Origin: Parcubacteria group bacterium Gr01-1014_20
Lineage (GTDB): Bacteria; Patescibacteriota; Minisyncoccia; UBA6257; 2-01-FULL-56-20
NCBI GenBank assembly: GCA_007376265.1
Contig: VMFW01000007.1
Coordinates: 1 to 43,173, forward strand
DNA: 43,173 nt
Reading direction: 5' to 3'
Both the position numbers and the translations under genes were made by a program. How positions within the stretch are numbered: position 1 is the stretch's first letter; every line of letters starts with the position of its first letter. The notes below the pieces were generated by a model. It had not been told where the DNA came from, searched no databases, and worked only from the letters and a program-made list of their open reading frames with translations. Positions 6,255 through 8,306 of the stretch are shown here, piece after piece.

Positions 6255-6959
6255 ATGAACGAGCTCCTTTTTTTTCTGGCGGTTTTTATAGATTTTTGTT
6301 TTGTGTTTCTCTTTTTCCACCTTGGCGTCAAAGTGGGACGCCGGCTTTTTGTTGGTATTATTATTAACCTAATTTTGGTGGCCGTTTTTGGTGGCAAGCT
6401 CATCTCGCTTTTTGGGTTTACCACCAATGTCGGTAATATTTTCTATGCGGCGGTTTTTTTGGGTGTGCAGCTTACACTCGAGTACTACGGGCGGAAAGAC
6501 GCTATTCGAAGTGTTTGGGTTAGTTTCTTTGCGGTTAACTTTTTTGTTCTGATGGGACAAGTTGTTCTTGGGTTTCAGGTTGAACCGATGAGCGGTGAAC
6601 TTGCAAGTGCGCTCAGGGTTGTTTTCGGAGTTGTTCCTCGGGTTACGATTGCTTCGCTTTTTGGTCTCATTTTGTCTCAATACGCAAACATTTACATCTA
6701 TGATTTTGTTCGTCGGAGGGTTGGCGAGGCACGGTTATGGCTTAGGTCACTTACGGCTGTGTTAGTGGGCCAACTGGTGGACAGTTTAGTGTTTTTCTCG
6801 ATTGCTTTTTTAGGGGCTCTGGAATTTGGCACGGTTCTACAGGTAATGATTGTCGGTTTTGTAATAAAGGTGTTGATTGGGGTGATGGCGCTCCCATTTT
6901 TGCATATGAGTCGACTGTACGCGCCAGTGATTGAAGCGGAGAGGGGGGGGATTAGCTGA
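6255..6959 (+). CDS. YhhQ/VUT-family membrane protein (putative queuosine precursor transporter)
   Basis: This 234-aa protein has about six transmembrane segments. The segment TNVGNIFYAAVFLGVQLTLEYYG and the later RVTIASLFGLILSQYANIYIYD and VGQLVDSLVFF match the conserved positions of the VUT/YhhQ family (TNV.., DxxxE.YG-like, ASL..sQ, QxxDS). Members take up queuosine precursors for tRNA modification. The DILNEHYG-like motif is weaker here (LTLEYYG). It is followed by a terminator and forms its own transcription unit. Confidence 0.75.
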   Translation: MNELLFFLAVFIDFCFVFLFFHLGVKVGRRLFVGIIINLILVAVFGGKLISLFGFTTNVGNIFYAAVFLGVQLTLEYYGRKDAIRSVWVSFFAVNFFVLMGQVVLGFQVEPMSGELASALRVVFGVVPRVTIASLFGLILSQYANIYIYDFVRRRVGEARLWLRSLTAVLVGQLVDSLVFFSIAFLGALEFGTVLQVMIVGFVIKVLIGVMALPFLHMSRLYAPVIEAERGGIS

Positions 6960-7039: not shown

Positions 7040-7097
7040 CTTTGGTTGGAAAAAGACAGCTGTTTGAAAATTAATCCTTGGAATGAGGAGGGTAGAA

Positions 7098-7641
7098 ATG
7101 GGTCTTTTCGGTTTTGGCCGAACAAGAGATGCCGAGATTCGGAAGATTTTTCGGGATCACATTGTGAATACCAGAAAATGCGCCTACGAACTTAGGACAA
7201 TTTTTGGCGCTTCGGCTACAGATTTTCAGTTAACCCCCGAGCGTATTAGTCGGATCGAGGAGATGGAGCATGAAGGCGATCGACTGACTCATCAGCTTAA
7301 CCTTATTATGAACGATGCTTTCATTACGTGGATTGAAAAAGATGACATCCATCACCTCATAATTGAGCTAGATGAGGTGGTGGATAATATCAAGAAGGTC
7401 GTTTTGCACGTTCGCGCCTATGGGATTAGCGCCGGTCGGCAGGAGGCTTCTGATTTTTGCGGAATTATTACGAGAATGACGGAACTTCTGACCGTGCTTG
7501 TCGAAATGCTCGATAAGCCAAACATTCTCCACGCCCAGGTGGGATATTGTCGGCAAAGTCGTCTTTGCCTGGGTCCTAACCTTTCCCGTTTGCGGGGGGA
7601 TTGCTTTTCTAATTTCGTATTTAATCAAGCAACTTATGTAG
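7098..7641 (+). pseudogene. DUF47 (PhoU-like) fragment fused to the tail of a PiT phosphate transporter
   Basis: The ATG at 7098 (MGLFGFGRTRD) is preceded by the ribosome binding site GAGGAGGG and is preferred to the track start at 7083. Residues 1 to about 145 match DUF47/PhoU-like proteins (EMEHEGDRLTHQ, FITWIEKDDIHHLI, ELDEVVDNIKK), which normally reach about 205 aa and precede a pit gene. From about 7535 the +1 frame reads RWDIVGKVVFAWVLTFP and on to TAG at 7639-7641, which matches the C-terminal end of PiT phosphate permeases. A deletion of more than 1 kb therefore seems to have removed the end of DUF47 and most of pit. In the DUF47 frame there is no stop before msrA, so the track shows one 407-aa ORF. 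Confidence 0.75.
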
Positions 7642-7646
7642 AAACT

Positions 7647-7676
7647 AAAACGAGCTCACAGGAGAGCTCGTTTTTT
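7647..7676 (+). terminator. Terminator of the former DUF47-pit operon
   Basis: AAAACGAGCTC pairs with GAGCTCGTTTT around ACAGGA and ends in a T run. It lies six bases after the PiT-frame stop codon and before the msrA promoter, showing that msrA is a separate unit. Confidence 0.85.
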
Positions 7677-7694
7677 AGTAATTGGCGATTAGAG

Positions 7695-7700
7695 TATAAT
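7695..7700 (+). promoter_or_regulatory. -10 promoter of msrA, leaderless geometry
   Basis: TATAAT ends six bases before the ATG at 7707, which places transcription initiation on the start codon. Confidence 0.65.
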
Positions 7701-7706
7701 GAAGCT

Positions 7707-8306
7707 ATGACTAGCGATAGGAGAGAAATCGTAGTCTTTGGGGGAGGATGTTTTTGGTGCACGGAGGCGGTATTTCAGGGGCTAAAAGGGGTAATTTCGG
7801 TAATGCCTGGATATGCTGGGGGCCCCTCGACGGGCGATCCGCCAGTTAGTGGACCAACTTACGACGAGGTGTGTTCGGGCAAGACTGGGCATGCCGAAGT
7901 TATAAAAATTGAGTTTAATCCAAGTGAGATTTCTTATAAAGATCTTTTGACTGTATTCTTTGCGACTCATGATCCAACTACGCCCAATCGGCAAGGCAAC
8001 GATGTGGGAACGCAGTATCGATCGGTTATTTTTTACACCAATGACAATCAGAGACGACAGGCCGAGGATTTTATAGCAGGACTTAATAGTCCGCATTTGA
8101 CGGGAGAAAGAATTGTGACGGAGATAAAACCGCTCAATAAATTTTACGAAGCGGAAGCAGATCACCGCGACTACTACAAAAAAAATTCGGCGGCGCCGTA
8201 CTGTCAGGTGGTCATAAATCCAAAGCTCCAAAAGATGCAGGAAAAATTTTATCGTTTAGTTAAGAAGTCTAAAGAAAAAGGGGCTGGTGGGGGGATTTTG
8301 GGCTAG
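7707..8306 (+). CDS. msrA: Peptide-methionine (S)-S-oxide reductase MsrA
   Basis: Repairs oxidised methionine in proteins. The catalytic motif GCFWC is at residues 14-18 (nucleophile C15), followed by the conserved NDVGTQYRS and EADHRDYY segments and a C-terminal cysteine in APYCQ that probably acts in recycling. Its 199 aa is a normal length. The ORF track merges it with the upstream DUF47 remnant, but the terminator at 7647-7676 and the TATAAT six bases before the ATG at 7707 define its own start. Confidence 0.93.
   Translation: MTSDRREIVVFGGGCFWCTEAVFQGLKGVISVMPGYAGGPSTGDPPVSGPTYDEVCSGKTGHAEVIKIEFNPSEISYKDLLTVFFATHDPTTPNRQGNDVGTQYRSVIFYTNDNQRRQAEDFIAGLNSPHLTGERIVTEIKPLNKFYEAEADHRDYYKKNSAAPYCQVVINPKLQKMQEKFYRLVKKSKEKGAGGGILG

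Follow-up and report, generated by a model that had tools for sequence, protein, structure and literature searches.

The closest described counterpart of the locus studied here is the DUF47(PhoU_div)-pit operon, in which a gene for a PhoU-like accessory protein precedes that for a PiT phosphate permease, and we take OrfA of Sinorhizobium meliloti to be such a DUF47 protein. The orfA-pit pair of this species is mentioned in PMC3131613. Decayed genes in general are documented for two genome-reduced Parcubacteria genomes, with 4.9% and 9.4% pseudogenes, respectively (PMC11188291). Furthermore, leaderless genes with a -10 element placed directly before the start are known in other phyla (PMC3160421, PMC12340547).

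Here, we analysed a stretch of 43,173 nucleotides of Parcubacteria group bacterium Gr01-1014_20 (the window), in which the two gene fragments, the hairpin and msrA lie on the forward strand. Our preferred reading, held with considerable confidence, is that a single deletion scarred a DUF47-pit operon, leaving two fragments out of frame with each other and an accidental open frame that continues into an intact msrA.

Two gene fragments and the sequence missing between them

At 7098..7520 lie the first two thirds of a gene for a DUF47 (PhoU_div, PhoU-like) protein, encoding residues 1-141, as delimited by PF01865 and by alignment with complete relatives. The ATG at 7098 is preceded by a Shine-Dalgarno-like GGAGG, and among solved structures the nearest is the putative PhoU-like protein 3l39_A (E 2.6e-7). 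In a Pfam profile search, positions 11-135 of the 214 of PF01865 matched frame residues 16-139 (E 7e-10), with no match beyond; likewise, ten complete DUF47 proteins of 206-236 aa, when aligned with the frame, resembled it only up to about K140/P141, and the conserved C-terminal columns of these relatives were missing from the fragment. It therefore falls short of a full-length DUF47 protein, which would carry PF01865 over about 205-235 residues together with those columns. A preliminary description of this DNA had the DUF47 match break off near residue 145; the break itself is real, but it lies nearer residue 140.

Shortly downstream, the 3' end of pit, consisting of its last 33 codons and the stop, was recognised at 7540..7641 in the +1 frame relative to DUF47 by PF01384 and tblastn, with a conserved W at 7540, the motif AWVLTFPVCG and TAG at 7639-7641 as landmarks. 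Searching the genome with the profile, positions 324-350 of the 350 of PF01384 matched 7525-7605 in this frame (E 4.5e-4), and hmmscan gave E 9.9e-5 at 21.9 bits against a gathering score of 33.7 bits, the match covering just 27 profile positions. In tblastn against a small database, the tail shared 50-51% identity with the C-termini encoded by relatives' PiT genes that are preceded by DUF47 (E 5e-12 and 2e-10), and the remnant terminates at the same place as these genes. The resemblance of the +1 frame to PiT, on which the earlier proposal of some 35 terminal permease residues had depended, was thus borne out by both profile and relatives, with 33 residues counted from W 7540 to the stop. Both conserved motifs of PiT, FxNGxxD and HGxND, fall within the missing stretch, and no full-length PF01384 permease is encoded at this site.

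Right after the tail, where a terminator had also been anticipated, a hairpin with a U-run at about 7644..7679 folds with -17.2 kcal/mol (z -5.1) and probably served the former operon as its intrinsic terminator; it is missing from the terminator list of a pattern scanner. A search for known RNA elements returned none at the scar and, across the window, two tRNAs only.

The size of the missing part follows from the spacing of landmark codons, for which nine same-class genomes with DUF47 directly before pit served as comparison. Between the DUF47 K140 codon and the conserved pit W codon lie 22 nt here versus 1112-1138 nt in the nine intact operons, and because of this difference we place the junction within 7518..7540 and the loss, judged from sequence, at about 1.09-1.12 kb, truncating both DUF47 and pit. 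The absent part comprises the 3' third of DUF47 and about 290-300 codons of pit, while both ends are collinear with the intact homologous operon, as is expected of a pseudogene pair made by deletion. The suggestion that a DUF47-pit operon had lost over 1 kb thereby gains support. Alignment with such operons, proposed as a way to the exact junction, narrowed it to this interval but did not reach a single base, because the nearest DUF47 proteins are only 32-33% identical: two scans of contig collections with the DUF47 fragment turned up no intact operon in a close relative, and the sole match in the two-sequence-alignment scan, from Nomurabacteria, had 33% identity. Since more than 1 kb of the homologous region is absent, a frameshift alone was ruled out. 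One order member (G056, L034 3986-5656) carries pit before DUF47, opposite to the order in the other relatives.

In the ancestral state, a DUF47-pit operon closed by its terminator would have stood upstream of an independent msrA. A single deletion of about 1.1 kb would then have taken out the final third of DUF47 together with the first ~90% of pit and joined the two fragments out of frame. Neither remnant product is expected to work, since the DUF47 protein would be a third short and no permease is left.

Alternatively, an intact operon might exist in the organism, with about 1.1 kb of it passed over in assembly or with two strains joined. This is a draft assembly (912,976 bases in 20 contigs, with 1.6% contamination), and the 33-codon pit tail shows neither stop nor frameshift, even though it would have been untranslated since the deletion, which fits a recent event or none at all. 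However, the assembly is 99% complete, and a search for a second DUF47 or PiT stretch across all contigs returned one match each, both at the scar; the junction, moreover, lies well inside a 43-kb contig, away from its ends. We therefore regard an assembly artefact as unlikely, though not negligible, and favour a real deletion, given that the missing part was found on no other contig.

The downstream msrA and the long open frame

At 7707..8306 follows a complete msrA, encoding a peptide methionine sulfoxide reductase of 199 aa that matches positions 2-153 of the 153 of PF01625 (E 2.7e-60) and carries the active-site motif GCFWC (within GGGCFWCTEA). Its best match among ten genomes searched was a congener (69% identity), and the contig thus fits the genus of the genome. 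The ATG at 7707 is without a Shine-Dalgarno sequence, and the TATAAT at 7695..7700, 6 nt before it, probably serves as the -10 element for leaderless transcription of msrA; the homologous start in the congener (L030) likewise reads TATAAT-N6-ATG (MSRKEVAIFGGGCFW). Across the window, hexamers resembling TATAAT stand 5-8 nt before the predicted starts 7707, 8353, 17303, 23631, 29059, 35223 and 39256, that is, before 7 of 42 gene starts versus 2.9% in the background (binomial p 2e-4; indicative only, with starts hand-picked from the ORF list and a loose hexamer pattern). This excess suggests that leaderless transcripts occur in the lineage. Most likely, msrA is expressed independently of the scar from its own predicted leaderless promoter and, being intact as well, should be unaffected by it.

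The DUF47 frame nevertheless runs into msrA, extending over 7083..8306 through the DUF47 fragment, the out-of-frame pit tail and the terminator. The 407 aa reported earlier are correct if counted from the ATG at 7083, but the better-placed ATG at 7098 is the likely start and gives 402 aa. From the junction to 7707 the frame is free of stops over about 57 codons, across which it would have stayed open by chance to meet msrA in phase. As to how often this could happen, within the coding sequence of the window, 35-codon stretches read in the same relative frame are open in 10% of cases, and the shuffled 65-nt terminator region in 15%; the same wrong frame is open in the pit tails of 4 of 10 relatives. 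Given the frame, the combined chance amounts to a few per cent. This is unlikely, yet no reason to postulate selection, since the frame was noticed because it is open, and with such tails and shuffled regions open at these rates the long ORF needs none.

These figures bear on whether translation through the former terminator might yield a functional DUF47-MsrA fusion of ~402 aa, in which case a deletion would have given rise to a new gene in a bacterium of a candidate phylum. The frame open from 7083 to 8306, its Shine-Dalgarno-like start and the low chance expectation speak for such a protein. However, its linker would be composed of out-of-frame pit and a terminator, its DUF47 part would be without the last third, and the strong hairpin with its U-run would break the transcript; in addition, none of four relatives inspected has DUF47 before msrA. 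We consider a functional fusion very improbable. Because msrA has its own start and a leaderless-type promoter, both common to the congener, the 402/407-aa frame is most likely accidental, as the preliminary description had supposed.

Phosphate uptake in the genome and its relatives

The phosphate importer lost at the scar was probably the only recognisable one in this small genome. The genome search for another pit, suggested at the outset, found no second PiT on any contig; likewise, no NptA was found in the genome, no PstC scored above cut-off, and the search for PstB returned only general ABC ATPases far below cut-off.

Such absence appears common among relatives. PiT scored above cut-off in two of 61 genomes searched (one family member, one order member) and in 5 of 244 genomes of the order, and it was absent from both congeners and from 35 of the 36 other family members searched. 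This indicates that lack of PiT is tolerated, and its loss therefore returned the genome to the usual state of the family. The DUF47-pit operon was probably an occasional acquisition that has since been lost. Just upstream of the scar, at 6255-6959, lies a gene for a Vut_1 family (PF02592) transporter, which may be part of the same acquired block, as it shares only 29-30% identity with its matches in congeners. Elsewhere, PiT was matched weakly at G048:C5:20995-21171 (L006), where two stops interrupt the reading frame; this is possibly another decayed pit or a chance match.

Comparison with known systems

The scar is ordinary reductive gene loss in a genome of the Patescibacteria type and no pointer to a new mechanism. 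Its practical consequence concerns annotation, as automatic gene calling would record a false DUF47-MsrA fusion protein.

With regard to leaderless genes of other phyla (PMC3160421, PMC12340547), msrA is similar in having TATAAT 6 nt before an ATG without Shine-Dalgarno sequence, but here the leaderless start is predicted only. Compared with the Parcubacteria pseudogenes (PMC11188291), the scar likewise preserves remnants of genes in a similarly small genome, although here a defined internal deletion has merged two of them, with an open frame leading into a third gene. Finally, it shares with DUF47(PhoU_div)-pit operons the order of DUF47 followed by pit, homologous segments at both ends and a terminator after pit, whereas its middle ~1.1 kb is gone and both genes are truncated and mutually out of frame.
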